From Arcuatula senhousia (taxonomy: Eukaryota > Mollusca > Bivalvia > Mytilida > Mytilidae), in contig OZ020305.1 in the NCBI GenBank assembly GCA_963971305.1, forward strand, positions 12,061,001 through 12,125,000: 64,000 bases of DNA. The letters are read 5' to 3'. Below, piece by piece: positions 7,859 through 56,657 of the stretch; the first letter of the stretch is position 1; every line of letters begins with the position of its first letter. A model generated the notes under the pieces. It had not been told where the DNA came from. It saw only the letters and a list, made by a program, of their open reading frames with translations, and searched no databases. A program made the position numbers and the translations under genes.

Positions 7859-8050
7859 TAACTTAAGATTATGAAGTTAACATGAAATGATGATGATAAA
7901 AGAAATATGGATATAGGATGGGAAAGAATTTAAAGGAACAGTAAATTTTAAGACCACAGGAAAAGGGGAAAGGTGGAAAGGGACAGAAAATACAGCTTTT
8001 GTGGTGCACTACTTGTCGGTCCACAAAGGGATAATTTACGTGCATGAAGC

Positions 8051-8849
8051 GTGGCACTCGTGGTTCGCGACAAGGTTTTCTGCGTTATAGCCCGACAACC
8101 CCGACATCCCAGTCGCTTTATGGACTAAGCGACTTGACCCGTCCCGATATCAAATTTCTGAGGTGATGCTGAAAAATTATTTTAAAAAGCGAAATTTATG
8201 TATGTGTGGGGAAAAATGATATTGCTTTTGTTAGAAAAAAATTACCAGGTTGGAAAATCCGAGCCCCACCTTATAGGAATAATCTGTGCTTAAGTCGTTT
8301 ATTGACCGACCATTTAAGTTTTAAATGGGGCGGCTTAGAATCCCCCCTCAGAATATTTTCTTCCTAACCTCTGGTGACAGAATATTTTGTCCATCACTAA
8401 TAAGATTCACGAGATTCACATTATTTCTTAAAAACGCCGTGCACGAATCGTGGCACTCGTGGTTCGGGACCAGGTTTTCTGCATTTTAGCCCGACAACCC
8501 TGACATCCCAGTCGCTTTATGTACTGATCGACTTGACTCGTCCCGATGTCAAATTTCTGAGGTGATGCTGAAAAATAATTTAGAAAGGCGAAATTTCTGT
8601 ATGTGTGGGGAAAAATGATTTTGCTTTTGTTAGAAAAAAATTACCAGGTTGGAAAATCCGAGCCCCCACCATATAGAAATAATTTGTGCTTAAGTCGTTT
8701 ATTGACTGACCATTTAAGTTTTAGATGGGGCGGCTTGGAATCCTTCCTCAGAATATTTTCTTTTTAACCTCTGGTGACAGAATATTTTTTTTCCATCACT
8801 AATAAGATTCACGAGATTCACATAATTTCTTTAAAAAACGCCAACCACA
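8051..8849. repeat. Two tandem copies of a 399-bp unit
   Basis: 'gtggcactcgtggttcg' occurs at 8051 and 8450, and everything to 'acgccatgc/acgccaacc' repeats with few differences. A diverged relative of the unit's start lies at 20780-21250. The unit contains gaccgaccatttaagtttta, the end motif of the MITE family at 11618, 18241 and 27948; a matching opposite end (ttaaatggtcagcc) stands at about 8864. Confidence 0.7.
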
Positions 8850-11610
8850 CATCTTCAAGTTAAATGGTCAGCCACTCATAAAAGGAATAATAATTAATGG
8901 TTGAACAGTTTCAATAAAGGGCGTAACTCCATTAAGGCAAATGAGGTAAATGCCTCATGACGATATTGGCATTTTCTTAATGATTATGTTTTTGTCATTG
9001 TAAGAATTTGGATAAGTTCTTTGAAAAGGAAAAAAGACATTGAACAAAAAGTTTCTTTACAAAGATTTAGTATTGATTAAGACAAATTGAATAAATTCGC
9101 GAGGGTCAAATGAGAATATAGTCTTGCTTAGGCAATTTGCTCGTCAGGTAACGTTTAACTACCATAAAGTTGTATGTTTAGGTCACATTGCCTTAAGCGA
9201 CTCAGACCCGTGCAGAAAAAAGTTGGCCTCGCTTAAATTGCTCTGTTACAACTTTTGTCTCATTTTATAAGATATTTTTTATTTTGGTTGTGGCCATGCA
9301 GTGTATGAGTGAATTTCCCTAAATGGTTTAAAATCATAAATATTTCTTAAAAAGTGTAGATTTTATATCCCACTTTCATGACTTTAATATCCCGTAGGGT
9401 TAAGGTAAGAGTAGTCTATAGTTTCCGCCATTTTTATGAATGAAATTTAAATTATCTCTCTTTACCAAATATTTATTGATTTGGTAACAGAAAAACTTCC
9501 TGGTTCAAGTTTGACTTTGAAGGTAAAATATGAAAGATTTGAATTGATTTGCCATAAAAGCGATATAAATATACTATAAATTGAAACAAGAGTTGGGTGA
9601 CAACATTATTTAAAAAAAAAATATTGACGATAGCCGAGTTTGAAAGCTCGTTCGTCTTAACATTGACAGACGGTCCTGTTGCTATGTTGAAAAGAAACTA
9701 ATAACTCCAATTGAATGTCCCCGCATTGGTAGGAATTTCATATGAAGTGCAAAATTTGTAATTAATCCTCCGAGAAAACAGATTCTTTCGGATACATCAC
9801 AGGGACTTGCTTCCCTCTATCAATAATTTGTTAATAAGAGTCAATGTGCGGTTTTTTTTTTCGTACCGCACATTGACTTTAACAAAATATTGATAGGATG
9901 AAGCAAGTCCCTGTGGATACATGAATATTCATTGGATATTCGGGTGCAAGAGTGCCAACAGCCCGGACCAACTGCACTTCAAAAATAAACCACTCATATA
10001 GTTAAAATGAAAATATAAAGTGAACCCATTCATATATATTGAATGTCAAATAAACATTACATGCATCAATACCACCATGTATTTCTACATTTGATCCGAC
10101 TTTTAAATGTCACACAAAACGATTTTTTTTCATATTTTGTCAACGTTTTCAAAATCGCGACCGTTTACTAAAATAGAGAAAGACTAAAGTTACATGTAGT
10201 TATTCGATTCTCGCGAAATTGGCTTATCTGAATCAGGTAATTCGAGGTCTATGGTGCAGTCAGAACTTTGCCTCGACTTCCGGTTTAAAAATGATGACAA
10301 ATTTTACTACACTCCCGCCCAGTTAAAATGTAAACTTTGCTCGATCTCCTTTGCCTGTTTTGATTTACCGTTCTTGTCGACTCTAATATACCTATCATGG
10401 TTATGCAAACACGTAACCATTTGAAAAGTTACTATATATTAAAAATAAAAAGCTAGCTTTCAAAGTGTAAGACTCAACTAACAGTCGTTCGCGTAGATCT
10501 GTGGTATTGCATGATAGTGAATGCTAACGATTTTTTGTGCGACCTAAGTATAATTATTTTCCTTTATGTTTCAAATTTGCTTTTCACCATAATATGTAAA
10601 AAACCCCAGTTTTTATATTTAAACCCAACGCTTCAAATGGGTATAAAGTGATATAGGGTCGTCCATTCGTGTGTCCTTCCGTTACACCACTGGGTATACC
10701 CGTCTCTTATCCACCCTTTCTCCTAAATCCCCCAAATGATTTTCATAAAATTTTCACACAAAATTTTTGACAAATTAAAATGTTCACCTTACATTTTAAA
10801 TGTTAATCTGTTTGATTTTTGTGGAGAGCGGTGGTATTCGTTTGTGATCAACTGCTCACAGTTTTTCTAGTTAAAACTATATTCTTGTATATTACTTAGT
10901 GGGTTTTCTGATGATCCACGAATACTGTGGCAAAGTCTATAGTTTCCAATATTTACGAATGGAAACATGATTTCCGAAAGAGGTTAAAAATAAAAATCTG
11001 ATTGAAAAAGCAAATACGGACAATTAATATATAACATGCACGAATCAAAACCAGTATAAATATGTACATGTATGCACAAGTTCATGTTAGCTTCCTGTAC
11101 TATTTTTCAGGTGACCTAACGACTCAACAGACGTTACTAAACAACAACATTTTCATCTGGAAGACTTTTAAGTGTGTGAGTTTATCCTTCATTTTCTATC
11201 ATCATTCATATGTTTTTGACTAAAGATTTTTTGAAGACCTACAAGACCTGAATCTTAGAATAGATTGGCAAAAATGATGAAGTCTCAACATCATGCACGA
11301 ATTTTGTCTACTAGTAAACCAAAGAATTACACGGTGTATATCCATATCGGATAAATATGAATTATAGGTTCTTACATAAGTTCGATCTTGTAAAAAGACC
11401 GGCTGATCTTTCACAAGTGATGGAATTTTTCAGTCTTTTTGCGAGTGAAGCGGAGCGAAACAATACAGAAAGTCAGACAGAGATTTTCACAAGGAATCTA
11501 ACGAAAGAAGATTTTGAAAACCCCAAATTCAATACCAACATTTATTTAGTGTATATGATCATCATATAAAAACTTCATAACAATTGGCTGGCCTAATTCA
11601 ACTTAATTTT
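8850..11610. other. Non-coding duplicated sequence with one long hairpin
   Basis: No gene recognised. The sequence is AT-rich and conserved in copy B at 39130-42140. The only clear structure is the hairpin at 9791-9922. Short open frames at 11220-11570 are not conserved in a coding manner: copy B interrupts them with a different 270-bp segment (41718-42010). Confidence 0.6.
9791..9922. repeat. 132-bp hairpin (inverted repeat)
   Basis: The arms run from gatacatcacagggacttgc to its near-complement aagcaagtccctgtggatac, with tcaatgtgcgg/ccgcacattga closing near a poly-T loop. Arms are about 55-60 bp with a few mismatches. Copy B keeps it at 40075-40193. It is probably a MITE rather than an RNA gene. 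Confidence 0.7.
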
Positions 11611-11617
11611 AGCTATA

Positions 11618-11962
11618 AGGGACGGACCTTGAAGGGGGGCCTTGGTTTTTTTCTAAAAAAATATTTTGAAAATGATTTTTGATGAAAAAAATATTTTGAA
11701 AATGATTTTTGATGAAAAAAATATTTTGAAAATGATTTTTGATGAAAACAATATTTTGGCAGCAGAGGGTAAGAAAAAAAAATATTATGATGAAGAATTT
11801 CTGCCATATAAAATAATGCTAATAATAAAAAAAAATATTCTGTCCCAACGCTTTCAAAAAATAAAAATTCTGTCATGACGCATTCACGAAATAAATTTTT
11901 TTTCCGCGTTTTGGCCAAAACAAAAAACCAAGCCCCCCTTTCAAGTTAAATGGTCGGTCCCT
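11618..11962. mobile_element. MITE present only in copy A
   Basis: Ends agggacggacctt and aaatggtcggtccct pair as inverted repeats, with a second inverted pair ggggggccttggttttt / aaaaaccaagcccccc inside. The centre has a 30-bp unit (ttgaaaatgatttttgatga) repeated more than three times. Copy B lacks the segment at about 42160, so it inserted in A or was lost from B after the copies separated. Confidence 0.7.
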
Positions 11963-11986
11963 AAGACAATTTGTCTCAACAAACTT

Positions 11987-14235
11987 TTTAAAATGTCTTT
12001 TTTGTCCCTTCCACCCCTAATTTTTCAAAAACGGTTAGAGATATTGCAAATCTGATTGAAAAACGTAGGCAGGGATTTTTACAAGGATTCCAAAGAAAAA
12101 AAGATTTTGATAATCGGACCAAAAATAAAAAAAAGTAGATTTCTGAGTGTGGCCCCTTTTTGACCCCCCTATAGCAATGTTACAGTGCAATATATATCGA
12201 AACCATTGACACATTTAGTTGACACAATTTAATGAAGAATTTTCAAAATTGAATGCCTGAATAATAGCGAGCATCGCAGATGCGAGCCCTACGGCATTGT
12301 GCATGTTTTGAGATGTGCCAGAAATATACTGACGATAGAACCGGAACAGGTTTACTTTTACGGAGATTTTTGAAAATCGGAAAACAAATAAAAAAGTAGA
12401 TTTTTTGGGTGTGGTCCCTTTTTGACTCCCCTATAGCAATATAACAGTGCAATATATATCGAAACCATTGACACATTATTTTACAGAATTTAATGATGAA
12501 TTCAATAAAAAAAAAATCAAAACTGAATGAACAATGAACATTCTACAACAGTGTTGTCAATACACCCGATTTAGCCCCTTTTGGCCTTTTTTTTTATATA
12601 AAACAGTAGAGGCCACAAACCCCAAATACAATACCAAGTTTCTTTAAGTCGTTACAAACATCATTTCAAAATTTCATATCAATCGGTCTATATTTACTCA
12701 CGTTATCGCACGGAAACCAATTGTCCACAGACGACAACGACGACGACATCGCAATAACATTATATAATCGCAAAAATTATGCGGTCGTATAAAAACAGAA
12801 AGTTTTAAATGTCATAACATTTCATTGGTCGACATCATCAATCAATATCAGTACCGATGTTTAATTTTTATTGGTTAGTTAACCCATGCGAGATCGCTGC
12901 ACGTGCTCGCATCTCAACCTGGTCATCTCACAATGAAATAAAAAGCTTTGCCGAGCGCAGCATGATACGACCACAACACGATGAACCCTGTACATTTTAG
13001 GCCCAATATGGATAGTCAATTGCTCTGGACACATGCAGCCCATGGTGGACTGACAAAGGTTTTTGACACATGCCTTTTTTAGTGGACTTTTCAGCCACAT
13101 TTAACAGGGAATTCATTAGATTTAACTATTTTAAAAGTTCAATATCAACACTCAATTTAATATTAAGAAATCGACCAATTTTCTTGGTTAATCTATAATT
13201 ATTATTGATGTTTTTGACCCCTTTGCCCCCTAACTTCTTGAAAACAGTAAGAGATATTCAATTAAAAAAGTTTCAATTTTGGCCCCTAAATACGTTATAG
13301 GGGGAAAAAAGGGAGGTTGCAGAAATTAATTCTCAAATTTTTGTATCCACTAATTGACAAGAACAAACATGCACCAAAAATTTTCAAAATCGGATCACAA
13401 GTAACACATTTTTGATTTTGGTCTCTTTTGGCCTCTAATTACGTAATAGGGTAAAAAAGGGGGTCTCAAAAATTAATTCTCAATTTGTTTTCGCTATTTG
13501 ACAAGAACAAACATGCAAAAAAAATTCAAAATCGGATCACAAGTAAACAAGTTTCGATTTTGATCCATTTTGGCCCCTAATTACCTAATAGGGGGAGGAG
13601 GTTTTCAAAAATTTATTCTAAATTATATATCCGCTATTTGACACGAACAATCATGCAAAAAAGATCAATATCGGACCACAAATAAAAAAAAATCGATTTT
13701 GGCCCCTTTCGGCCCCTAATTACATAACGGGGAAAAGGGGGCGCAAAAATTCATCATGTTCATTTTGTTATTATAAGAAACATTCTTGACAAATTTCTCA
13801 GCAATAGGCCAACTAGGACCAAAGTTATGGTGGAAACAAATAAAATATTTGAATTTTTTGCCCCTTTTGGACCCCTAATTTCGAAACAAAAAAGGGGGGA
13901 CCCCCAAAATCAATACCAGTCATTCTATTATGGTAAGGAACATTATTGCCAAATTACAAACCAATGGAATAACTAGAACTAAAGTTATTGTGGCAACAAA
14001 CATAAAAGTAGCATTTTAGCCCCTTTTTGGCCCGTAATTTCGAAACGAAAAATTGGGGGACCAAAATCAATCCCATTCATCCTTGTATTGAAAGAAACAA
14101 TATTGTAAAATTCCAATCGGATAACTGGAACTAAAGTTATTGTGGAAACACTAAAAAGTTAACAGACAACAACGACGACGACACGACATCACCATACCAT
14201 AATACGCCCACACATTTTTTGCGGTCGTATAAAAA
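11987..14235. repeat. Degenerate tandem repeat region (~140-bp period)
   Basis: Words such as 'ttggcccctaattacgtaat', 'aaaatcggatcacaagtaa' and 'gacaagaacaaacatgc' recur about every 140 bp and then drift into 'aactaaagttattgtggaaa' units. The block is studded with gcggtcgtataaaaa (12780, 14221) and acaacgacgacgac tracts. Copy B has the same region at 42160-45935 with a Helitron-like insertion and an extra unit. No gene is supported. Confidence 0.7.
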
Positions 14236-15050
14236 GGTATTTACGGGGAAAAATGACTGAAATCTTTAAGTTTTCGAAAAATCTTGTCACGTCCATTAGT
14301 TCTTCAATAACTTTACCTATAATCTATGTATTGTTTTTTGTTTGACTCTTTAAGTGAGTATAGGACTTTAATTGCTGGAAATTCTAACAGTTCTAACCGT
14401 CTATGACTGTAAATATTCCCGTCCTCAACCTCGTATGTTGAAAGAAGCAGAAACTGTTTTCTGTTGCGTTGTTGCGTAGCTTTCTAAATTACTGAGTTCT
14501 AAGTTTTACAGACAAAATCCGAAATAGAAGGTCGTGGGTTGATTCTCGCATATCGCATTAATCAGTTCACCTATGGAGACACAAATGATCATTTTTAAAC
14601 TTTTCATTTTTTTGTTACGCCTGCGCTGAAACTTGGCATGCGTTTGTTAAAGCTTGGCAGTTGCTTTTTCGTCGATTTTTTGTTTATATTTCTCATAGTA
14701 TTGAAGAAACCCAATTATGAATAGAAGATATTGTTTGATGATATATTTGCATTATAAATGATTATGAAAAATGTAACAAAAAAGTAATCGAATAAAATCT
14801 CAGTCGTGAAATCGAAATGCTATAAGGAGCCTGAATCGCCCACTTGATCTTTAACGTTGAAACCTTTTTACCTAGTGTGCAAAGGGAAACTAACTCTCTT
14901 TAAGGAGTTGTCCCACAATTTTGGCTTAATGGAGAGTTATGTGAAGCTTTTGTCAAGTTTTATGCTGAGGAATGAAGGTGGCCTCGGATTTTCTCTATGG
15001 TCTGATCCCCTATTCTATTTTTCGCAACGGTGACCATGTTGGTTGCGTAG
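14236..15050. other. Non-coding sequence upstream of the SINE-like pair
   Basis: No gene recognised; conserved in copy B (45936-46870) apart from an additional ~110 bp there near 46400-46490. Confidence 0.5.
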
Positions 15051-15225
15051 CCGGAGAGCATGAATTACGTCACAAAATCGACATGTCCTTACCGGGAATC
15101 GAACCCGAGACCTCTAGGTTTACAGTCAGGCACTCTACCTCTGAACCAAAGAAGTACTTCCCTTGTTCAGGGATAAAGGCTGGCTATTTAAATCTACTAG
15201 GAAGGGGAGCAACCCCGTTACACTT
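15051..15225 (-). repeat. tRNA-derived SINE-like unit 1 (copy A)
   Basis: Minus-strand text ggttcagaggtagagtgcc (A box) and ggttcgattcccggt (B box) frame a tRNA-like body at 15092-15152 with a loop reading ctgactgtaaa (GTA in anticodon position). The acceptor stem does not pair, so this is a tRNA-derived repeat, not a gene. Conserved tails on both sides ('ggctatttaaatctactagg' and 'acgtcacaaaatcgacatg') belong to the unit. A second copy stands 290 bp further on. Confidence 0.65.
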
Positions 15226-15340
15226 CCCCCCTCCTCAAGAGTCATCATACCTTCATGTATGACTCTTAACACAACTAACCCTGGCTAGTTTTCCTGTTCT
15301 AACCATCGTGGTTTTTTTTTTAGTTGGTCGCCAATGTAAC

Positions 15341-15514
15341 CGTAGAGCATGAATTACGTCACAAAATCGACATGTCCTGACCGGGAATCGAACCCGAGAC
15401 CTATATGTTAACAGTCAGGCACTCTACCTCTGAGCCAAAGAAGTACTTCCCTTATTCATGGATAAAGGCTGGCTATTTAAATCTACTAGGAAGGGGAGCA
15501 ACCCCGTTACACTT
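15341..15514 (-). repeat. tRNA-derived SINE-like unit 2 (copy A)
   Basis: Direct repeat of the unit at 15051-15225, with tRNA-like part at 15381-15441. The B box is intact; the anticodon-loop region differs (tgttaacatata). Both units recur in copy B. Confidence 0.65.
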
Positions 15515-16071
15515 GGTAGACGTGCATTATTTCACAAACTTGGTATAGTACACCCTAAAGACCGAGTGTACAATTCCTTCAGTGGTATCGGAAAAGGTAT
15601 CTTTAAAGAAAAAATAAATAACGGACGAACGCCGGACGCCCGGATATGACAATAGTTCACATGACCCTTCGGGTCCGTTGTGCTAAAAAAAGGGGGGTCA
15701 TACGGGCGACCCAAGGGGTTATCTTGTATGCAAGTACCCGCGCTTTAACTGACGATTTTCAATACATATAAAGCAATCTAACTTAAAGTTTAGTGTCGAA
15801 CTCTCTATATCTTAAGAAATGTAAATCCTAGGCTAAGAAACTTTAAAGGCATATGCCCCAGTAGTAGCTCAGCACAGTTGTATTTCCATTTTTTATCTTG
15901 ACCTTGATCTGCCAGTTTAGTGATTTTGAAAATTTGTAATCACATACAATATTTCTGAATCATTACTAGACAGTTACAATTACATTCTAATCTTTTGACC
16001 TTGACCTTAGCTAACAGCATTTGTATATAAGTTGGATTAATTCATTAAGAGTATTACTCAGTGATCGAATG
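15515..16071. other. 5' flank of the B-box gene, copy A
   Basis: No coding signal. Well conserved in copy B (47340-47893), with small indels. It leads into a TATA-like box. Confidence 0.5.
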
Positions 16072-16079
16072 TATAAAAG
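16072..16079 (+). promoter_or_regulatory. TATA-like box of the B-box gene, copy A
   Basis: TATAAAAG lies 249 bp upstream of the ATG and is preserved in copy B (47894-47901) although the sequence directly after it differs. A 5'-UTR intron is possible, because a pyrimidine-rich acceptor (ctgtctttcgcag) ends at 16305 just before the start codon. Confidence 0.45.
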
Positions 16080-16327
16080 AAATCAAATTGGTATGGTGCT
16101 GGCAAGCGAGACTTACTGTAGTAGTTTTTGTCAATGCTCTTTGCTTATGAGGCTCGTCCAATAAATGGTGTAGTAAAATGCATAGAAAACGATGATTCAC
16201 GTGATTTGATTTTAATTCGACTAGTACAGTATAAAATTTTCATAATTAGACATAGCTTCAGTCTTGAAGGATTTATATTTTTGAATAACTTTCTGTCTTT
16301 CGCAGGTCTGTATTGCAGAGTTTAGAG

Positions 16328-18016
16328 ATGGCAACGATCATTGCATGTGGCCCATGTGAGTTCCTTACTAAATCAACCCCTGCAGAATATTGGTGCCCGG
16401 AGTGCGAGGACTTGCTGTGTGAAGAGTGTAACAGCCACCACAGTTCAGCTAAATCATCCAGAGATCATACTGCCATAAGCGTGGAAAATTATAGAAAACT
16501 ACCACAGTCGGTACGCAAGGTCACTCAAATTTGTCCCAACCATGGCATGAAATATGTCCATTTCTGTACTTCGCATAATACTACATGCTGTCCAGCATGC
16601 GTTTCAGGATTACACAAGTCATGCCCCGATTTACAATTACTTGATGATGTTATCAAAACAGCCAAAACATCCAGTTTTATCGACGAAGTTGAGAGGAGCA
16701 TGAAAGAAATTACATCAAACTTACAGAAAATTATTTTGGAACGTGATCAAAATTTTTCAGAGATACAAAAACAGAAACGAGAAATTAAGGAGAAGATCGG
16801 CACTGTACGTAAAAACGTCAACAAGCACATTGACAAGTTAGAAGAAAAGATACTCGGAGAATTAAACCGTATTGAAGACAGTGAGACAAAGAAGTTGCAA
16901 CAATCTAAGACCAGATTAACAGCCAAACTAGACCTGGTTGAAAACAAGTTAGAGGAAACGACCATACTAAAGAAGTACGCCTCAGATCTACAAACCTTTC
17001 TTGGAACTCGGGAAATAGAAAAAGTCATAGAGAAAGAGAAAACATGCTTAGATCATTTATCAAAGAACGGTTCCCTTAACATATACGAACTACAATGCAG
17101 CATCAACGATAAAATACAAAGCATTATGTCCGATCGCGATATTCAAACGTTTGGTTCAGTATCAGTCATCTCTAAACCTTCAACCGTACGTCTGACATCC
17201 GACAAAGACAAACAGGCACAGATATTTATATCCACACCCCAACCAAACAGAATCAAATTTGAAAATGCTATCACTAATTTAAAATCAAAGTTCAATATCC
17301 AAGGGTCATCACTTAGAGGATGTTCTGTATTTCCCAATGGCAAAGTCGTCGTTGCTGATAATAAAAACAGTCGTGTTATCATTTTAAGCGAATCTGGTAC
17401 AGTAGAGAAAGAAATCCCCATCAGAGGAGGATTGGGTCCATGGGACGTGACAGTCATAGACGACAGATCTATCGCTGTATCTACATACAATGGAGTACAG
17501 ATAGTAGACGTGAATACCGGCACTGTGGAGAGGACGTTTGATGTGGGAGATTGCTGTGGATCGTCCTATCATGATGGAATGTTGTACTGCTGTGTAGTTA
17601 ACATAGGCGTCATTTCTATTGAAATGTCTACAGGGAGAAATAAAACAGTTATAGATGATCGCCATAACTATTATTCAATCTGTGCCGTGGCTGGTGATCA
17701 TTTATATTATACAAGGGCAGACAAGAAAGGTGTGCAGTGTTATTCCGTCACAGGAGAGAAGAAATGGGAGTATGAAGACAGAACACTGATCAATAGTCCT
17801 AGAGGTGTTACTACTGATGACAGTGGTAACGTCTACCTGGCATCTTATTGGAACGACCAGATTGTGATGATATCTCCTGATGGACAAAGATGTAAACTGA
17901 TACTGTCTGGTAATGACGGGATTGTAAAGCCGTTTGGACTTTGCTTCGACAAGAACAAGAAGGAACTTTGCCTTGCCTGTGAAAAAGGTCAGTGCTTCGT
18001 TTTCGAAATAAAATAG
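16328..18016 (+). CDS. RING-less TRIM-like protein: two B-boxes, coiled coil, NHL-like propeller (copy A)
   Basis: Intronless coding region of 562 aa. The start chosen is the ATG in gagATGg, with a purine at -3 and G at +4; an earlier TTG is ignored. Residues 7-47 form a B-box type 1 (CGPC, WCPEC, LLCEEC, then HH and DH zinc ligands). Residues about 70-102 form a B-box 2 (ICPNHGMKYVHFC through HKSC). About 115-250 is a charged, heptad-rich coiled coil. About 315-562 is a six-bladed-propeller region of NHL/SMP-30 type, with blades ending in phrases such as GNVYLASY and ISPDGQRC. No RING precedes the B-boxes, so direct E3 ligase activity is not expected. Such proteins are greatly expanded in bivalves and are often proposed to act in signalling or immunity; that role is inference here. 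A polyadenylation signal aataaa lies at 18074-18079. Confidence 0.88.
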   Translation: MATIIACGPCEFLTKSTPAEYWCPECEDLLCEECNSHHSSAKSSRDHTAISVENYRKLPQSVRKVTQICPNHGMKYVHFCTSHNTTCCPACVSGLHKSCPDLQLLDDVIKTAKTSSFIDEVERSMKEITSNLQKIILERDQNFSEIQKQKREIKEKIGTVRKNVNKHIDKLEEKILGELNRIEDSETKKLQQSKTRLTAKLDLVENKLEETTILKKYASDLQTFLGTREIEKVIEKEKTCLDHLSKNGSLNIYELQCSINDKIQSIMSDRDIQTFGSVSVISKPSTVRLTSDKDKQAQIFISTPQPNRIKFENAITNLKSKFNIQGSSLRGCSVFPNGKVVVADNKNSRVIILSESGTVEKEIPIRGGLGPWDVTVIDDRSIAVSTYNGVQIVDVNTGTVERTFDVGDCCGSSYHDGMLYCCVVNIGVISIEMSTGRNKTVIDDRHNYYSICAVAGDHLYYTRADKKGVQCYSVTGEKKWEYEDRTLINSPRGVTTDDSGNVYLASYWNDQIVMISPDGQRCKLILSGNDGIVKPFGLCFDKNKKELCLACEKGQCFVFEIK

Positions 18017-18240
18017 AATCACGGAGATTAAGTAACTTGATAACCACAAGAACCACCGATACCGTTTTGATAAAATAAAGGAATACACTTTTATAAATGT
18101 GTTGGTTAAAATGTAAAACTCTCAATTAAAACTTTTAAAAAATCTCTCGATTTAAAGGTGTAGATTAGAACAATAAAAAGACAGAACAACTCAGAGGAAT
18201 TGTGTGTTGTAGCCGAGTTCGTAGCTGTGAAAAATAATAA
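18017..18240. other. 3' flank of the B-box gene, copy A
   Basis: Contains aataaa at 18074-18079, 58 bp past the stop codon. This flank is visibly more diverged from copy B than the 5' flank, as is the propeller-coding part. Confidence 0.5.
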
Positions 18241-18428
18241 GGGAGCGACCATTTGATTTTTACGAGGGGCTATGGTGAAATTTGATATGAACATAAAGTG
18301 CTTTGAACTAAAAAAAAAAAGACAGGATGGTGTTTTGGCTGAAAAAATATAGTAAGTCAAATACATGATCCGATTTTAAAATAAAAAGGCGGGACGAAGA
18401 AAAATTTCCATAACAGATGGTTGCTCCC
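18241..18428. mobile_element. Small MITE of the GACCATTT-end family
   Basis: Starts gggagcgaccatttgattttt and ends tggttgctccc; copy B (50056-50253) keeps a better right end (aaaatcaaatggttgctccc). Internal text agctatggtgaaatttgat is shared. Present in both copies, so it is older than the duplication. Confidence 0.6.
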
Positions 18429-18897
18429 GAAGTCGTAACGCCTATGATTTTATATGTTAAGATAAATGTCGTCAATCAGACTAAAAAACAAACAGTTTAT
18501 AAAAAGATGTATTGTTAACCATTCATTATTAGATACTCAATTCATAGGTTGTTGTATATTTATTTATAAAAATCATCACAATTATCGAATACAACTTTTT
18601 AGATAGACAAACAGGCATGATTAGATATTCAAGAAAGACAAATAAAGTGAAAATGAGCAATGAGCGGTCACTTAAAATTGCTGTAGATGGTTTACCTTTT
18701 TTCATCCAAATTTTGATAACTTTTCTAAAATGTAGATTTTGTTATAAACATCATAACTTTTTTTTTTTATTTTCAATATAATTCTTATCAGACATGCGTT
18801 CATGCGTATACTCATTTCTGATTGGTCTAAACGTCATTGCCAGATCCGTTCATACTTTCATGAACGACTCTGCCTCGTTTTCAATGTAAACAAATAC

Positions 18898-19026
18898 ACC
18901 CGGGTTAACCCGAGATCGTGAAGTCGGTGGTTATCGTGAACTCGGTTAAGCAAAATGTAAACAAACGAGAATTGACCAATGGGAAAAGAGAAATTTTGAC
19001 TAAAATGTAGTCGTTAACGCGGTTAA
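18898..19026 (+). repeat. Left ~129-bp inverted arm
   Basis: Reverse complement of 22221-22349 with few differences; shared text includes aaacaaacgagaatt and ccaatgggaaaagagaaatt. Confidence 0.8.
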
Positions 19027-19301
19027 AAATCAAAGCTGTTATCGTTTAACTCGGTTTAAGTTATCGTCAACATAACACGGTCACATATGCCTTTAACGGT
19101 AACTTCTAGTTTTAAAACGTACTCCATATGTTTTAATGACACTATTCTGTTGAGATAACTAAAACGAAAGGTTTACAATGAACGTTTTGGAACGGAATTC
19201 CCGGATTTGCGCTAAAAAAGATTTATGAAGCATTTTCTCTATGATCATTAAAAAATACATAAAATGTATTTCCTTATTAGTTGTTAACACCCCATAAAAT
19301 A

Positions 19302-20012
19302 AACAAGTGGCTCCCAGGAGCCTGAACCGCTCACCTGGTCTTGATGTCGACCCTATGAAGCCTAACTGAGATGAATGGTAAGCAAACAACAGCTTTTCTC
19401 TATATGCAATAGTTTTCATTCTATAGGCCAAAAACACTATTTTTTAACTTTAAGGGGCTATAACCCCTATAAGGGGGTCATCTGACAACTTCGACCCTAT
19501 GGAGACTTTTGTAGAACTCAATGAGCTGAAAATTTAAGCAAGCAACAGCTAATCTCTATCTGCAAGATTTCATTCTGTAGGCCAAAAACACGAAAAAAGT
19601 CTATTTTTCACCTTTAAGGGGCCAAAACCCCTAAAGGTGGTCATCTGACATTTTCGACCAAAAGGATACTTTTGTAGAGCTTTAGATGCTGAAGCAGTAG
19701 CATTTCATCAGATTTCATCTATCTCTTATACTTTTTAATTTATAAGCCAAAAACAGTAGTCTGACCCCCAGGTCTATTTTTAGCAACGGCGGCCATGTTT
19801 TTTATCAGATCAATTTAAAATGAGGATCGTTTGTAGCGAATATACCATATATCATTCCTGCCAAGTTTCAAGCAAATTGATTCAGTAGTTGCAGAGGAGA
19901 AGATTTTTTAAATTGTTAACGGACGACGACAGACGACGACAGACGACGACGGACGACTACGGACGCATTGTGATGACATAAGCTCACATGGCCTTTGGCC
20001 AGGTGAGCTAAA
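19302..20012 (-). repeat. Dispersed repeat related to 53692-55396, opposite orientation
   Basis: Begins ggctcccaggagcctgaacc and ends ggccaggtgagcta, the reverse of the ends seen in copy B at 53692 and 55390. It contains the 'aagtataagagatag' type words and a gacgacgacagacgacgac tract (19921-19960). Here the unit is present about once, not three times. Confidence 0.65.
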
Positions 20013-20739
20013 AACGGAGTGTGCAGATTCATACAATATACAAATTGTTGTGACAAAATAAAAAAAATCTAAAAAAAAAAAAAATAAAAAACCGTGTTCA
20101 ACCTACACCTCTTGCTTTTCTGGAATGAATCAAACGAGCATTATTTTGATGACAAACTAAAACCAGTTTTACCGAAATACTTATAGTTTAACATTATTGC
20201 GTTGCCAGTAAATCATAATCATAGACCTACACACTTAAAGTATTTGTATACGATTTTAACAGCATACTTTTGCACAGTATTTAAGTGACCGATCATTTCC
20301 GATAAAAAAAAACCCAAAAACATGATAAATCTTTTTTTTTTTTTAAAATATGTTTTGACAGCACAGCTTCAGATAAACACTGAAAAGGATTTCTGCTATA
20401 TAAAGCATAATGTTTTCAATAAAAATATTTGGTCATGTATGCCATGCGAAATAGCTAATGTACGACCATAAACGAGAAGGAAATGTACTAACTCATAAGA
20501 TCAATGTACCCCCAATGCACAATAGGCCAATGTACCTAGAAAATAACCAAACCCTCCCCCCCCAAAATAAAAATAAATCGCATGATCTGAAACTTTAACC
20601 TAGGGTGACTGACAATGAAGAAACTTTACCTGAAATGAGGTCATATACTAGTTTGACATTTAACAGAGTGGGATATAGCCAACCCTTAACCAAGTTCACA
20701 TAGGCAACCCTTATCTGCCGAAAATACAATACTGAATCC

Positions 20740-21310
20740 TTTTGAACCGACACACACTGAGCGAGAAAAAAAGGGTTTGGGTGGGAAACAAAAGAACTGT
20801 AAATTTTGAAAACCACAGGATAAAGAGCGAGGTGGTTAGGGGCAGAAAATTTAGCTTATATTTGATGAATTACTTTGCGATCTTCAAAGTGATCTTTTAC
20901 GTGTCTTTTGAACATCCCTGGCAAGAAGCATGACTAATCAAAGGTGGGTTAAAGAACGGTGTGCCGGGCGCGCTCCCTCCCGTTTTACAGGAAAATTTGG
21001 TTAGGAACTGAATTAAATAAGAAGTCCCAAAGAATTTTTTTAATTGCGCGCCCTCCCCTTTCAAAATTTCTGGATCAGCCACTGGCCCTATCCACTCACC
21101 TTGACCCACTATGGTTTGCGGTCAGGTTTTCCGAATTATAGCATGATGACTCCGGTATTCATTATGACAGGGCTGTCCCATTCAACTACCTTAGGCACAT
21201 ATCCCAGTCGTGTTTGAGCTAAGCGAACGGACCCAATGTCAGCCGTTTCTGAGCGCTCTTTAGTGGACTTCTTCCGACAAGCTTAGTGCCTTTGTGGGCC
21301 TATTCGCTTC
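20740..21310. repeat. Diverged relative of the 399-bp unit and its left flank
   Basis: 'gaactgtaaattttgaaaac' and 'cacatatcccagtcgt...gagctaagcgaacg' parallel 7935-8135 (gaacagtaaattttaagacc, catcccagtcgctttatgg). An old copy of the same family, inside the copy A-specific insertion. Confidence 0.45.
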
Positions 21311-22220
21311 CCGTGCACCGCAAGGATTCGGAACCAAGTGTTAAATATTCTGTACATAACGACTGCCATAAGATTGAGAATTAATTATAAAGGTCAGTTT
21401 TATGATAAAGGGTCGCTAATGTCCCTCTTTTTGCTGGATTCCACGAAGTTAAAAATCAATTAACTCAATAACTACTCATCGCAGCCTTTTGATATTTGGT
21501 ATGTAGCATAAGTATGCAATCCCATAGCATTAGGTCTGTCACTCTCGATCTACTTCCTGTATAACAAAAAGACGGTCACTATGTCTTGACATGGTTTATT
21601 TTTTTTATAAACAAAGTTGATTGGTCGTTTATTTGTACTACACATGTATATAGTGCCAATATTGAATAAGCTGTTGGTTTATTATGTTAATGATATCTAT
21701 TCTTGTCCGTGTGTTTGTCCGTCTAAAGATTTTGTTAACCTTTTTTTCTTAAAAATTAAACCCGAATTCGAAGTTGCAATTTGCCATACCGTTTATATTT
21801 AGTTCCAAGATTTTGGACCACGACCAAAACAATTAAAACAAGTTGTTATGGAAAAGTAGATAAAAAAAGTAAGATAATTCTTTATAAAGTACTTTAACAG
21901 GGTCAGAAATAAACAATCGGACGCATGTATATACCCCAAGTTTCCCAAACACCGGCTGTAATTAATTAGAGAGTGGTAAATTGCATATGGTTGACAACCT
22001 TACTATATATTATATATTATAAAGTCCAGTATTTTTACCTTTATTTACCCTTTTTAGTTTCTTTCCTTAATTTGTTAATGAGATACTTCTAATTTCAAAG
22101 ACCAAAAAGTTAATTTGTTACACTAACAAAGGTTTCAAACATCTAAACTAACACTATTTGATAAGAGAAAGAAGCTTTTGGTACATATTACATTATACAA
22201 ATTTGCGGTTCACGATAACA

Positions 22221-22349
22221 TTAACCGCGTTAACGACTAAATTTTAGTCGTAATTTCTCTTTTCCCATTGGTTAATTCTCGTTTGTTTACATTTTGCCTA
22301 ACCGAGTTCACGATAACCACCGATTTCACGATCTCGGGTTAACCCGGGT
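22221..22349 (-). repeat. Right ~129-bp inverted arm
   Basis: Inverted partner of 18898-19026; ends aacccgggt. Confidence 0.8.
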
Positions 22350-22444
22350 GAAATATGGTGGCGATGACGTCGTCCTAAATAAGGAATTGTTTCCGAATAT
22401 ATTTATTTTTCTTTTTAAAAAAATGATAAATTTGAAGAATTATA

Positions 22445-22600
22445 AGGATTGAACACCTATTTTCGGTCGTTCATGCATGTATGAACGGATCTCTTCACTC
22501 ACAAACTGTATCATGAACGGCCTTCGGCCATTCATTCAGTTTGTGAGCTCCAAGATCCGTTCATACATGCATGAACGACCGAAAATAGGTGTTCAATCCT
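22445..22600. repeat. 156-bp near-perfect palindrome
   Basis: 48-bp outer arms at 22445-22492 and 22553-22600 are exact reverse complements. Inside, ctcacaaactg/cagtttgtgag and ggcc-ttc-ggcc continue the stem to the centre. It forms the right end of the copy A-specific insertion. Confidence 0.9.
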
Positions 22601-22603
22601 ATA

Positions 22604-24000
22604 ATATATTTTTTAAATTAATTTCATTTCAGATTTCAATGATATTGTACCAATTTTTACATCTTAGCAAAAAGTTTATGAAGACAATTGTACAAAGATT
22701 TTAGCCATGCCTTAAAATTTATGTTAAGCAGAACCTGGGTTACATCCCAGCTCTTTTGTTCTAACAGGGGTGATCTGAGCCGGATCGTCCCTCGGAATAC
22801 CCTGTTCTACTTTTCCAACTCTATTATTCTTTTTCTTTTGTTTTTTATAGCACTTTTTTTTTTAGAAATGTTCACTAAGTTGGACATGTTGGACTTAGTA
22901 AAATTATAAAATCAACAACAAAGTATAATTGAAGATTGAAAAATACATAGTTCCCACTGGGATTGGAACGAGGGACCTCGTCATTCCTATTCCACCTTTA
23001 TGTCCGCTAAACCACGAAACCAATGCAAACTTTGTGTTAAAAATTTGTTGATAAAGAATATTGAAGGGGCCCTATAGGGATACTCTATATTATATAGTAT
23101 TTTTTTTTATTTGATTCTAAATACACAGAATGTATTCTAATGTTTGTATTTATATTTTACATGACATTTTTGGAAGGCTGGGATGTAAAATAGTTATTGC
23201 GTTCGGACTTGGTGGTGCCTCCGGCCGTCGGGTGATCTTTTACTGACACACCGCGTCCTCATGTAATAACTATTACGGAAATGTGACTTGTGTTTGAGGA
23301 AAATAGACTATGTTGTATTGAAATAAAATTCTTTAAAGTTCAAATAAATATAAGTAAAAAATGTCGAATTAGTATTTCAATCGTCTATAAAATGTACACA
23401 AAGCTGAGTCAATCCCCCCGCACAAAAAAATCCATTAAGAATACCAGTATACAATTAAAAATGCAAATGACAAAATAAATCAGAACAAGGAAAAAAGAAT
23501 AATGGAATCGGCAAAGCGAACATAGGAACGAATCATTACACTTGAAAGGGGAGGGGGCTTGTTGTTTTTTTTGTTTTGGTAAGAATTTTTTTTTTCAAAG
23601 TGTCGCGACAAAATATTTTGTCATTTTATATAGCAGAAATCTGTCTTCATGATATTTTTTCTCACCAAACCAAACAAGGGGTCAAAACCTCTTTAAAACC
23701 TCTTTTACCGTTATTTTTCATCCTCGGTTCACACTGCCAGTGATATTGATTCAACATGACAAAGGAAAAGAGAATTCAAATGAATAGCAGAAAATTAGAA
23801 AATAGCAGAAATAGTATGATCCGTGAATATAATGATTTACAAGGTCCGTTCATGTAAGGTTGACTTGAAAACTTATACAACACCATACGGAATTCTACAA
23901 AATATTTTTTTTTGGTGACAATGTTAAAGTTTTCAATATTCTATTCGACTCTGCTTCTTTCTTATTAATATGCCACTATTTCAAGCTCAGAAAAAACGTG
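22604..24000. other. Duplicated non-coding sequence
   Basis: Conserved in copy B at 50476-51830. Contains a tRNA-like fragment at 22951-23021. The 62-codon open frame at 23290-23478 is nearly identical in B only because the DNA is duplicated; it has no recognised domain. Confidence 0.5.
22951..23021 (-). repeat. tRNA-like (SINE-like) fragment
   Basis: Minus strand shows tggtttagcgg (A-box-like) and cgttccaatccc (B-box-like) at plausible spacing. T and acceptor stems do not pair, so it is not a working tRNA. In copy B a deletion removes the A-box side (near 50830). Confidence 0.4.
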
Positions 24001-25960
24001 TTTGTAGAGCTCATTTATCTCTCAGGTTTTTTTCTTTTGAGTTGTCATTTGACCCCTACTTATAAGGAAAAGAAAAAGTTTTTTTTCATGTATTTACACT
24101 ATAGAATGAAATCTATTGCAGAGAAAAGATGTTGCTTGCGAAAACCTACAGCCCATTAAACTCTACAAAAGTTTCCACAGGACCGAAGTATCTGAATGTT
24201 CCTAACAGGGATTATGGCCCTTTAACGGTAGAATTAAAATATCGAAACTTGTGCAAATTGGGGTGGAGGTGTTACATTCAGGTATTTCCTTATAGGAGTT
24301 ATAGATTTCAGGAAAGTCCGATATTGCTAATACAGGGTTCTTACACGATCAGAAATAGACGATATTGAGATGTGGAATAAGTGTACGCGACACAACAAAC
24401 ATAAACAAACAGCAATTCAAAAATCACAACGGAAAACAGCAAGCAGTCTTCAACAGGACCATAGGTCACTGCTTACCGTCTTGCATTGGCCCAATACTTA
24501 TAATACAATACAAAAGTTTCAAAACCAATCCCTAAATCATCAACGAAAGACCCAATTCTTGACATAAAACAGTTAACACAAAATGACAAGGACAAACAAA
24601 GGCTTTGGCAAAGTTTCCTGGCTTAGGACAGGCACATATACAAAACAACTAGTTTTTTGGATCCAACCTTCCCCCTATTGATAAGCTTGCACAAAGCATA
24701 CATATAAAACACACTGTAAAACTCAATCGACAAAAGTTCAATTCAACAAGAGAGAACCTAAGACAAAATACTGTACGAATACAACAAGACAAGGAGGAAC
24801 TCTCTTGAGATCACTCGAAGTTACTGACAACTAGCTAAGAAAAATTTATCGATTGATGTAAAAGAATTAAATACATCAGTTCTAAATCCGACACCCATCG
24901 TCAAAACAATGAATGATTTAGAGTTGTATCACCACACAGAACCGACATACTTGATCGCTGTGGTGCTTATAAATGATACAGTGGATACAAAGTGAAAATT
25001 TAACGTTTTAAAGTTACTATCAATCGAGAAAAGACCGGGAATTTCATTTTTGCTAATCCCGTTGCGGGAAAAAAAACGGGAAAATTTCAACCAACTCCCT
25101 AAATCTGCTGCACAATTCTACTCTACCCAAATATACTGCGGTAATATTCCCAGGACCAATGTGATTGTTCTTATTTCAATAAAACTATTCGATAGGTGTT
25201 TGAATAATAGTGTCTAATCACTATATTGTCAACATATCTAATTGGTTTATTTGGACATGTTGGATGAGAATTGAAGTCTTTTTTGTATAAAAGGACATTG
25301 GAAATGGGTGAAAAGACCTTTAAATTGATTGAAATCTCCTTGACTTTGGTTTCAGATTTTTGTTTGAACCCTGCAAAAGATCAGGTGAGTGATTCAGCTT
25401 CTTGGAAGCCTCTTGTCTTTTTTTTTTACATATGACCAATACCATAGAAATCAACAGATAAGTAATAGCAAAACACGTCAATTTGTTTTAATAAAAACCA
25501 CCAATAACAAAAATGACACAGAGATGCACGGACTTATGAAACATCAACGGGAAGTTGTTCACATTAAACACTTTCATTGCAACAATGCATCTACAAATTA
25601 ACCAGTCTCCATTGAAAAGAGCAGTTGATTCAAATTCAAATATAATTTAGCTGTTTCTCAAGTTCCATGAAAATATTGCGTCCATTGCATAGATTGAACA
25701 GAGAGAAAAAAATGAACACAAAAGCCCACCAAAAACCAAGCTTATGCAGTAAAGGTGTCTGGTCAGAATTCTTTTATCAAAGGTGTCGATACGAATTACT
25801 TTCATTTATAACATTTTATGTGGCAAAAATCCTCTTTCAGAATATTTTTTTAAGTACAATGGTCGATTCCTTACAATTTTGTTTTTCATGTTTTGTGACT
25901 TTGTGATGAAGAACAGAAATAAAAGCGCCGATTTTTTGCTTTGGTAATGCATTTTTTTTT
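24001..25960. repeat. Dispersed mussel-type repeats, no gene
   Basis: 24040-24330 and 24330-24860 contain words such as 'ttgagatgtggaataagtg', 'aggacaggcacatata' and 'ggatccaaccttccccctat', which resemble a repeat I recall as very common in Mytilus. A related unit follows at 25975-26480. Copy B keeps them at 51830-53690. Open frames here are short and unconvincing. Confidence 0.5.
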
Positions 25961-25974
25961 GTGTCATGAGGATA

Positions 25975-26480
25975 ATGAGATGTGGAATAAGAGAAGCGAC
26001 CCAACCTGCGTATATCAACGAAATTTTAAAAATCCATGATGGAAATCAGACAGCAGCCACCATTGTGACATCGTGAATGTTACCAGGAGTCGCAGTTCGC
26101 GATTTTTCGATTTGCCCTAGATTTAAAATATAATGCATAAGATTCAAAACCAATCCTAAAAATGTCAACAAAGCACCCCAATCTGGACATAGAAAGATAC
26201 ATTAGACGACGATTATTAGCTTTGACAGAGATTCTAGCTGGCTTTTGACAATCACACATAAAATGTGGCAGGGTTAAAAAAAAATTGCCCCCCCCCCCTT
26301 TTCACCATATTGATAAACTTGAAGTTAACACAATAGAAATCAAATTGATAAAAGTTGAATTTAACAAAAGAGAACCTGAGACATAAACACCACAAAAAAA
26401 ATGAGACGTAGAGGAACTTTCCTTGAGAAATCTCGCTTACTAATAGTTTAAAAACCTTTCTTAAGATTAACTCTGATGAG
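25975..26480. repeat. Second diverged unit of the same dispersed repeat
   Basis: 'gagatgtggaataagagaag', 'aaatcagacagcagccacc' and 'acaaaagagaacctgagaca' align with words in the preceding unit. Copy B follows it only to about 55880, where it runs into a Penelope-like fragment instead. Confidence 0.5.
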
Positions 26481-26510
26481 TCCTAAATAGACGAAACACG
26501 CGTCATAATC
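26465..26510 (+). ncRNA. Hammerhead ribozyme, minimal type I
   Basis: Core boxes are all present in order: CTGATGA (26473-26479), stem II GTC/GAC with loop CTAAATA, GAAA (26493-26496), a two-pair stem III with loop ACGC, and the cleavage triplet GTC (26502-26504). Stem I forms from gatta (26465-26469) with taatc (26506-26510) plus t-a next to the core. Very short stem III is the form described for Penelope-like retroelements. Predicted to self-cleave after C26504. Absent from copy B, whose sequence differs here. Confidence 0.72.
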
Positions 26511-27440
26511 ATTTCTCTGAAACTTTTTTGTAATTTTAATATCATTTCTCATTTTCTGTTCAGAACGTTGAGATATAGGTTAAATGAAACAGGTGACAAA
26601 TCAAGAGCCTTAACAAAACTTTCACAAAGCAACGTCATTTTGATTCAGCAATAGGACTTAATTTTGACTTTATGCATTTTAGACCAAATAATGGCCATAC
26701 GTTTTCCATGTTTACCTTGAACATATTTCGTACTTTTTTGTGTATATGTATGATTGTGTTTTGTGCTTAACTGCAACGTTCAGTTTTATGAATCAGCAAT
26801 GCCTCACTGCTACAAACAAGTTAAGGATGCGATTAAGAGGATACCCAACACTTAGGGTAAAATATAGTAAAATTGTGTCGTTTAATTTTCCTGAAAATTT
26901 GCAAAAATATTCACTTTAATTATATAATTCAATCACAAAATCTTACGATTTTCGCATCATAGGTTTCTTGGGAAAATTTTCGTTGAACATAATGAAGTTT
27001 CAACATATCCGATTTTGATCAATCAGCAGCAATTTAAAGTCCAAAAGAGAAACAGCCTGCAGCCATCACCGCAACCAGTTTTTCAATCAGTTCCAGATTA
27101 AAAAGACCTGATTCTGAACATATAACAACTGACTCAAAAACGACGGGTAGAATATCAGATTTGTTAAAATTTCTGCAAAGCTATGGACAGGCACATAAAA
27201 CAAATGTCAGGGTTAACTCTGTCGGTTGTTTCTTCCGGGTACTCTAGTTTCAATCACCACTAAAACTGTCAACTTTGAATGACCAGGTTGCGTCGCGTAA
27301 CAAAAAGTAATTACATCTAGGAAAAAAAATAAATGAAAGAAGACGTTGATATTATTAGGCTTAGGTTTGGTATAAGAAAGGAAAAACAGAAAAACTCTAA
27401 AATGTGATAAATAAATCTAAATACCAAAACGTATATGCTG
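26511..27440. other. Copy A sequence without counterpart in copy B
   Basis: Copy A differs from B between about 26282 and 27440; B has Penelope-like RT sequence instead (55885-56433). No gene or domain recognised in the A version. Confidence 0.5.
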
Positions 27441-27680
27441 GTTATGCTGTATATGCATATTTCAAGGAGTAGCCTCTCATCAGCAGCACTTGAAACAAGC
27501 ATTAAAAGGTCAAAAACCAAAAGTATTGAACGAAAAGACTCAAAACCAACATAGTGCGAACAGGAAAGCCAAATCCAGCACCGAGGATATCGACCATTTG
27601 AAGTACAAGGAAAGAAACCTAGTGTTTTATACAATGTTGAATTTTGAAATCGGAAATTTCAATGACAGAAAATAGTAAAA
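27441..27680 (-). pseudogene. Truncated Penelope-like element fragment (copy A)
   Basis: Reads on the minus strand with the phrase SSAADERLLLEICIY, the same as in copy B (56434-56650), and then leaves homology at a sharp point, before the catalytic RT motifs. In B the frame continues into the RT. So copy A has lost or been replaced over the RT. Confidence 0.6.
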
Positions 27681-27947
27681 TTTATTGGTAAATATAGGTG
27701 CTTTTTTCAACAATCATCAACATTTTGTTTCTATGACTAAATTATGTTTAATAGGCTGTTTTTGTGTAGATTGTAAACAACAACAACATTTTTTTGCAAC
27801 GATAAGACACCAAAGAGTTCAGACGTGGTTTAACGAAGAGCAAAGGTAAGATGCGTTTGTAATAAAAGGTCAAACTTAGCTTTTAAAGGGATACCATAAA
27901 AATGGGTCAAAGTTAAAAAGGATTGACAACAGATATACTTAGTTTTG

Positions 27948-28216
27948 TACAGACCATTTGATTTTCTGGGGAGGGGGGGGGGCTGGGATTTAAAAAAAAA
28001 TGTTCTGGCTCTGATTTTCGGCACAAAAATAGTTTAGCCAGCTGATAGGGCGAAATTTTTGCGTATTAGAAAAAAAAAGATTTTCTGAACAAAATTTTCT
28101 AGCATTGAGTGTATGGATAAAAAAAATAAGTTGGCCCGCGCAGCGGTCGAAAAAAAAATCCCGGCTCGGGTGAAAATCCAAGCCTCCCCCCCCAGAAAAT
28201 CAAATGGTCGGTGCCT
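27948..28216. mobile_element. MITE of the GACCATTT-end family (copy A)
   Basis: Left end cagaccatttgattttctgg and right end agaaaatcaaatggtcgg pair as about 35-bp inverted repeats flanking G/C runs. Copy B equivalent is 57890-58173. Confidence 0.75.
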
Positions 28217-28239
28217 TACCTGTGCTAAAACATTTACCT

Positions 28240-29795: not shown

Positions 29796-30025
29796 ATACG
29801 TACATTTATACATATCCCCTCTTGGTCTTCAAGGACCCGAAAGGCCGTTGAGTATTCTATGTCACCCAAGTCTGTCACTTACTGTTTTTTCTGCTCTCTG
29901 TCATGTATTCCATCCTATTCCATTCCTCTCTTTTTCAACAGTTCGTTTCCAGGTGTTCCTTGGTCTTCCAGCTTTTCTTTTACCTTCAGGTGTTCAGGTT
30001 AGTGGTACCTTGATGTAACTGTTAT

Positions 30026-30171
30026 TGTTGGTTTTACTGTTCTATGCTCCTCATATTCATACAGTGTTTGGCATTTTCAATATTTTTGGTAGAGCGCCTC
30101 TGATGAGTCTTGAATAGACGAAACGAGCGTTTTATTATAGATTTATTGTCTGGAACTTTGTTGTCATTTGT
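30026..30171 (+). mobile_element. Copy A-specific 146-bp insertion with hammerhead core
   Basis: Copy B lacks this piece: its text runs gttat-attctctacgta at 59611. The insertion contains 'tctgatgagtcttgaataga' and ends gtctggaactttgttg, resembling Penelope-like element ends. It interrupts the C-terminal part of the LINE. Confidence 0.65.
30100..30131 (+). ncRNA. Decayed hammerhead ribozyme core
   Basis: CTGATGA (30100-30106), a four-pair stem II (GTCT/AGAC), GAAA (30120-30123), a two-pair stem III with loop GAGC and GTT in place of GTC. Stem I does not pair convincingly, so activity is doubtful. Confidence 0.5.
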
Positions 30172-38115: not shown

Positions 38116-38331
38116 TAGATGACATTACAAGATAAGTACTAACTTAAGACGATGAAGTTAACATGAAATGATGATGAGAAAAGAAATATGGATATGAGAT
38201 GGGAAAGAATTTAAAGGAACAGTAAATTTTAAGACCACAGGAAAAGGGGAAAGGTGGAAAGGGACAGAAAATACAGCTTTTGTGGTGCACTACTTGTCGG
38301 TCCACAAAGGAATATTTTACGTGCATGAAGT

Positions 38332-42100: not shown

Positions 42101-42150
42101 TATGATCATCATATAAGAACTTCATAACAACTGGCTGGCCTACTTCAACT
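39132..42150. other. Non-coding duplicated sequence (copy B)
   Basis: Matches 8850-11610. Hairpin at 40075-40193. The segment 41718-42010 is absent from copy A and carries a piece ('gccgagcgaagcatgatacg') also seen at 12950 and 44645. Confidence 0.6.
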
Positions 42151-42159
42151 TAATTTTAG

Positions 42160-55880: not shown

Positions 55881-55884
55881 AAAA

Positions 55885-56650: not shown

Positions 56651-56657
56651 GAAAATA

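Follow-up and report, generated by a model that had tools for sequence, protein, structure and literature searches.

The stretch of DNA analysed here (the window; 64,000 nucleotides, C3:12061001-12125000 of a 1.04 Gb assembly in 1803 contigs) contains two closely related genes on the plus strand, referred to as A and B. Gene A (16328..18016, with the ATG at 16328 and the stop at 18016) is a single open reading frame of 562 aa, for which the ORF list, Pfam, an AlphaFold2 model, and fold matches give two B-boxes, a long coiled coil, and a six-bladed NHL propeller. Its partner copy, gene B (48162..49841, ATG at 48162, stop at 49841), is a single open reading frame of 559 aa according to the ORF list and Pfam. 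The ORF list opens both frames at a TTG five codons upstream of the ATG, and every one of the 90 aligned proteins has M1.

The B-boxes are recognized by Pfam as ANCHR-like_BBOX, with 30.3 bits in A and 29.8 bits in B (cut-off 27); zf-B_box scores 21.6 bits, below its own cut-off of 24.1, and 14 Cys/His positions are invariant in 90 of 90 aligned proteins. The coiled coil, judged from the helices of the AlphaFold2 model, comprises long helices at 116-217 and 220-246. Gene A also has the six-bladed NHL propeller expected of a TRIM-NHL protein, the first strand of which begins in the model at residue 316, i.e., at position 17273. There is no RING finger among the Pfam matches of A or B with E up to 1, as read from the open frame, and no B30.2/SPRY domain among these matches. 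Because the open frame shows no RING, we would not file the A/B family as a TRIM in the strict sense. The named homologues are Mytilus proteins with about 32-38% identity, and the best matches reach 39-40% (among the best 120 of 251), from which a mytilid-like bivalve is presumed as the host. B-box genes appear to be massively expanded in this genome, with at least 150 scored places out of 1920 candidates, many of them in tandem clusters on C10 and C13.

A sequence-only reading of the window had described a near-identical first ~315 residues in the two genes, about 47 differing sites thereafter, most of the changes altering the protein, an abrupt transition near 17285, and a more diverged 3' flank. 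The counts reproduce this description. The conserved half of A (residues 1-315; 16328..17272, plus strand), composed of the B-boxes, the coiled coil, and a linker, differs from B by one substitution (L>R) and a two-residue indel, with 4/939 nucleotide differences. The propeller of A (residues 316-562; 17273..18013, plus strand) is compared with that of B (49101..49838, plus strand), the start of which is set by the register of A residue 316 minus the two-residue deletion. Here, the two proteins differ at 47 positions, namely 46 substitutions and one single-residue gap, and about 65 nonsynonymous changes are found against 24-26 synonymous ones. In 100-bp windows, the divergence is 0-1% over 16298-17197, 3% from 17198, and 14% from 17298, and the coding windows from 17298 onward show 8-16%; the step lies at about 17273, on the first strand of the propeller. 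The pS increases tenfold, from 0.015 in residues 1-315 to 0.154 in the propeller (where pN is 0.114), a step beyond chance (Fisher p 6e-7, with site totals that were back-calculated and rounded). The noncoding 3' flank up to 18537 (18017..18537, plus strand) differs at 80/504 sites (16%).

On both sides of this region the duplicated DNA is much more similar, with 245/7621 A-B differences (3.2%) upstream and 73/3107 (2.3%) downstream, at 22604-25817. Since the adjoining duplicated DNA differs by just 2-3%, the propeller of A together with its 3' flank constitutes an island of divergence inside an otherwise similar duplicon. Selection on the protein cannot cause a jump in synonymous and noncoding 3'-flank divergence, and it follows that a segment was exchanged between copies, its noncoding end being 18017..18537.

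The duplicon holding A extends over 7859..33180 (plus strand), possibly on to about 36.1 kb, and matches in blastn both 38140-64000 and a third duplicon downstream of the window. The duplicon holding B (38140..64000, plus strand, blastn) runs past the window end. The mismatch between the A and B duplicons is mostly 2-6%, being about 5-6% further out and 11% at 32462-33180. The third duplicon holds a gene, L014, located about 35 kb downstream of B, and its noncoding DNA differs by 3.1-4.3% from that of A and B. The duplicon, about 30 kb in length, was copied at least twice, the copies with A, B, and L014 being mostly 2-4% apart beside the genes.

The third copy also gives a direction to the exchange. 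The pair B/L014 shows 17 differences in 575 sites over 17881-18125 and 18216-18537, while A differs from B at 69/550 and from L014 at 84/562. Because B and L014 agree there and A differs from both, A is the recipient of the exchange in these two intervals. In the 90 bases between them (18126-18215) all three pairs differ, B and L014 at 15/82 sites. Over 17273-17880, A, B, and L014 differ pairwise at 76-91 of 605 sites, and because all three are mutually different there, more than one replacement must have occurred. The conserved half of L014 differs from A and B at 55/939 sites; as this half has diverged too, the replacement in L014 probably involved the entire gene body.

The A duplicon contains in addition a segment of about 4 kb (18538..22602) that is absent from the B and L014 duplicons according to blastn, and which begins where the exchanged tract of A ends. 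Part of this insert (19379-20018) resembles repeats further downstream. Repeats inside the B duplicon have spacings of about 490 bp and about 325-350 bp (53759-55188 and 56672-57616), and the open frames at 55854-56591, 60107-60496, and 62259-62870 look by eye like fragments of a retroelement reverse transcriptase.

We have also considered the relatives of A and B in the genome, the tandem array lying at C3:11.68-12.15 Mb. From 39 matching places, 30 loci were taken. The family has ten close copies; from the 20 more distant loci (L019-L038), the 11 with a full-length frame were used, leaving out L024, L027, L029, L030, L033, L034, L036, L037, and L038; L036 and L037 have long open frames of 573 and 635 aa. 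A further 81 homologues, from the best 120 of 251, were aligned. One close copy, L011 (C3:11947475-11952164), has an interrupted N-terminal part, its longest open frame starting from about codon 61, and entered the codon analyses over this open part only, from codon 61. The PHI, GENECONV-like, breakpoint, and M8/FUBAR-like tests reported below are our own scripts or iqtree2 runs rather than the published programs.

In the ten close copies, none of 2000 permutations reaches the observed PHI statistic, either for the whole alignment or for each half. The best single breakpoint lies at 17258-17299, with an AICc gain of 443, part of which can come from rate differences alone; the topology was therefore tested separately, and in the AU test each half's tree is rejected on the data of the other half. 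As the breakpoint interval spans the start of the model's first propeller strand at 17273, the exchange point is placed at the domain boundary between coiled coil and propeller. Recursive splitting gives seven segments with different trees, and, in 90-bp windows along the propeller, A and B each change their nearest relative.

The flanks tell the same story. In their 5' flanks, A and L011 have a common type (94%) and L012 and L016 another (87%), with no match between the types; in their 3' flanks, A and L012 have a common type (82%) and L011 and L016 another (97%), the two types being alike over merely about 100-160 bases. The flanks of A, L011, L012, and L016 thus form a four-gamete pattern. 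The pair L013/L018 repeats the A/B pattern, with 5' flanks that are 99% identical, propellers diverged by 13-15%, and 3' flanks without a match. The ten close copies are hence mosaics, with exchange also inside the propeller. The receipt of the 3' end by recombination or conversion, one of the two explanations in the sequence-only reading, which had also called for a recombination test with related genes, is in this way borne out by the pS jump, the diverged noncoding flank, PHI (0/2000), the breakpoint, the two-way AU rejection, and the flank tests.

A close donor for the tract of A was not found in the assembly among the 40 scored of 708 candidates, the best being 84-85% identical over the tract and 87% over 980/1256 bases. 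The donor may have diverged, been lost, or sit on an unassembled haplotype. This result would suit a different history, in which alternative propeller alleles had persisted for a long time, the source haplotypes of the duplicons bore such alleles, and a crossover occurred near 17273; the synonymous divergence of about 0.15 would likewise suit deep alleles. L011 and L016, however, have no differences in 18017-18540 and unrelated 5' flanks, an arrangement that requires exchange between loci, and we consider an origin from old alleles rather unlikely. L011 may be a pseudogene, yet its end is nearly identical to that of L016 from about 17750 on.

Exchange between loci could also have taken place in the absence of diversifying selection, if old paralogues were mixed and the propeller loops are merely less constrained. 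The averages are compatible with such a situation. The mean propeller dN/dS is 0.69-0.79, below 1, and the pooled pN of the DA and BC loops over propeller pS in the ten copies is 1.29, with a bootstrap interval (0.93-1.76) that spans 1. For the A-B pair alone, dN/dS is 0.74-0.79 in the propeller, 0.88 in the DA/BC loops, and 1.42 in the AB/CD loops, the last on 12 changes. The selection signal described below belongs to the family, the A-B pair alone being without it.

In the ten copies, the pairwise pN/pS is about 0.30-0.31 in the conserved half and 0.76 in the propeller. The comparison of M8 with M8a (own script, segment trees) gives for the propeller an LRT of 80.8 (p about 1e-19), with 8% of codons at an omega of 5.5; codons 61-310 give a weaker signal (LRT 8.4, p 0.002), with no single site above 0.8. 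Seven of the 254 propeller codons have a P(beta>alpha) above 0.8, and all seven residues differ between A and B. On the plus strand, these codons are those of residue 346 in the BC loop of blade 1 (17363..17365, P 0.988), residue 372 in the DA loop before blade 2 (17441..17443, P 0.993), residue 408 in the DA loop before blade 3 (17549..17551, P 0.968), residue 410, which comes second in the first strand of blade 3 and is not part of a loop (17555..17557, P 0.995), residue 424 in the BC loop of blade 3 (17597..17599, P 0.959), residue 449 in the DA loop before blade 4 (17672..17674, P 0.964), and residue 553 in the BC loop of blade 6 (17984..17986, P 0.856).

Circularity and tree dependence were avoided by ranking the sites according to how variable they are in other sequences, either the 11 remaining paralogues or the 81 distant homologues. 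For the top 10-30 sites of either ranking, the ratio of pN in the ten copies to the propeller pS is 1.76-2.80, and a ratio of 1 or less appears in 0-17 of 5000 bootstraps; against their own pS the ratio is 1.61-2.21, and for the least variable 120 sites it is 0.46. Relaxed constraint should not lift pN over pS in this way at independently chosen sites, and one side of the propeller is hit far harder than the opposite one. DA or BC loops contain six of the seven hot residues, and these loops exceed the AB/CD loops in nonsynonymous or amino-acid rate and in entropy, whether the ten copies or the distant homologues are considered (0/20000 permutations each). The seven hot positions also have a high mean entropy outside the ten copies, among the 81 distant homologues as well as among the 11 other paralogues (0/20000 in both cases), with residues 372 and 449 ranking just 44th and 80th of 241 in the former. 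On these grounds, we regard exchange without selection as improbable. Across the ten close copies, positive selection alters a small number of residues, most of them in the DA/BC loops, against constraint over the remainder of the protein.

As a control, we took a different B-box cluster, located on C13. There, pN/pS is 0.43 in the putative propeller, 0.44 in the DA/BC loops, and 0.72 in the AB/CD loops, and the mean entropy of the hot sites (0.47, with five of seven positions alignable) is close to that of the propeller (0.49). Since this cluster lacks the pattern, the signal would not be general to the B-box genes of the genome; the control is weak, as it covers 8 of at least 14 places and the NHL propeller of that cluster is putative.

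The diversifying selection on the propeller suspected in the sequence-only reading is accordingly found at the level of the family, in a minority of codons with omega well above 1, and the mapping of differing residues on a propeller model that it had proposed puts six of the seven hot sites in the DA/BC loops. It had set selection and recombination against each other as an either/or; each of the two holds and their exclusivity does not, as both act on the same half. It had also held that a propeller dN/dS at or below 1, together with the lack of a closer paralogue, would remove both explanations. This is nearly what is observed, given the A-B values above and the fact that no scored match to the whole A tract exceeds 85%, but the rule is too crude, since a mean hides a few selected sites and a donor may be diverged, lost, or unassembled.

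The possibility that the assembly has set two haplotypes one after the other as A and B, or has made mosaics by chimeric joins, has also to be considered. A divergence of about 3% is similar in magnitude to bivalve heterozygosity, the genome is in 1803 contigs, and some common tracts, as in L011/L016, are identical. Such an artefact would have to account for a third duplicon at similar divergence, for other common tracts that differ by 0.3-4%, and for selection at the codon level in the DA/BC loops, which cannot come from assembly; moreover, the sole run of N in the window and the 100 kb downstream falls outside the A-B-L014 array. We judge an assembly-only origin to be very improbable and reject it. 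Finally, a whole-gene duplication followed by fast amino-acid change in the propeller, with no exchange of DNA, would fit the positively selected propeller codons of the family, but it is contradicted by the step in synonymous sites and the noncoding 3' flank, as well as by the conflicting half trees and shuffled flanks, and is rejected as scarcely credible.

That this is a real recombining and diversifying gene family is well supported, and a conserved part is joined in it to a recombining, positively selected part, as in diversifying recognition families. The likeliest reading is that of a B-box/NHL family without a RING and specific to its lineage, in which one half is fixed and the other, the recognition half, is swapped and hypervariable. 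With considerable confidence, we favor a joint explanation, in which duplicon copying, exchange of propeller halves, and selection on the DA/BC loops together shaped a tandem family that would serve as a recognition repertoire. The duplicon was copied, and diverged family sequence then took the place of the propeller and 3' flank in A, as well as of parts of the propeller in B, L014, or both, with a breakpoint close to where the coiled coil meets the propeller; the mechanism was presumably ectopic gene conversion or unequal crossing-over. The constrained N-terminal half would oligomerize and recruit partners as a shared effector part, and the hot face of the propeller would be the binding surface for a changing ligand. 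Recombination at the boundary would join new recognition halves to the fixed effector half and spread useful changes, and short tracts inside the propeller would recombine blades. The array may then represent a germline repertoire, most likely of sensors acting inside the cell on RNA or protein from microbes or viruses, and an immune role of the family is suggested by analogy. The joint explanation predicts that A and B bind different ligands through residues 346, 372, 408, 410, 424, 449, and 553.

The top face of a propeller is made up of its DA and BC loops. NHL domains bind RNA on their upper surface, as described in PMC5908797, and PMC9070667 assigns this binding to a charged top surface. 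It is thus plausible that the DA/BC face corresponds to the RNA-binding face of NHL domains. The RNA contacts given for DrLIN41 include 564, 581, 611, 628, 658, 676, 707, 722, 752, and 770 (PMC5908797). In our reading, with the blade pairing taken from the spacing, these contacts form five pairs 15-18 residues apart. The equivalent pairs in the A/B family are 14-17 residues apart. Residue 492, which occupies in blade 5 the position corresponding to 372 and 449, falls by the match coordinates on DrLIN41 Arg707, i.e., human Arg751, with a numbering offset for which we assume a 19-residue tag; it is not among the seven hot sites and is R in seven of the ten copies. Against this correspondence, PMC9634614 reports that in LIN41 and Brat the structurally variable parts of the blade-connecting NHL loops do not touch the RNA directly.

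We also put forward, tentatively and as somewhat short of an even chance, a germline combinatorial immune repertoire in which the nucleic-acid-binding NHL face has become a hypervariable surface for non-self, joined at the boundary to a fixed B-box/coiled-coil signaling half. Up to two variable positions in each of six blades would contribute, where the 14 "two per blade" positions were named by eye, just seven reached P 0.8, and one, residue 466, hardly varies among the ten copies.

To our knowledge, bivalves do not have antibody-type immunity, which raises the question of how they reach recognition diversity. In the present family, the NHL propeller, familiar mainly from conserved regulators of RNA, bears a double signature of an arms race, namely the exchange of whole recognition halves and selection on equivalent DA/BC positions of several blades. 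PMC5908797 reports that RNA recognition by NHL domains has evolved rapidly between LIN41 and Brat; if the ligand is RNA, the family would extend this to within one genome. In the titles and abstract starts of the open-access literature, where absence is weak evidence, we found no description of bivalve NHL propellers that are hypervariable or recombine.

The TRIM-NHL proteins TRIM2/3, TRIM71/LIN41, Brat, Thin, and Mei-P26 are few and conserved regulators, whereas the A/B family is expanded, has a hypervariable loop face, and shows no RING. Some likeness is found in coral tachylectin-2, a beta-propeller lectin with positively selected surface residues and a proposed role in immune recognition (PMC2880987). 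As presented in that source, however, it is a five-sheet lectin studied as alleles, without a B-box half, and its sugar-contact residues are conserved. The NLR-B30.2 genes of zebrafish are, in the account drawn from PMC4852459, a large family in which gene conversion is unlike between NACHT and B30.2 and the recognition domain is positively selected; they combine NACHT with B30.2/SPRY in a vertebrate, in contrast to the B-box, coiled coil, and NHL propeller of the bivalve family. The finTRIM genes of fish, according to PMC2657112, are duplicated genes with a TRIM-type N-terminal part, positively selected C-terminal loops, and recombination points detected by GARD; they carry a RING and a B30.2 domain, unlike the A/B genes with their six-bladed NHL propeller and no RING in the open frame. 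The A/B family would therefore appear to follow the logic of the zebrafish NLR-B30.2 and finTRIM genes in another fold and another phylum.
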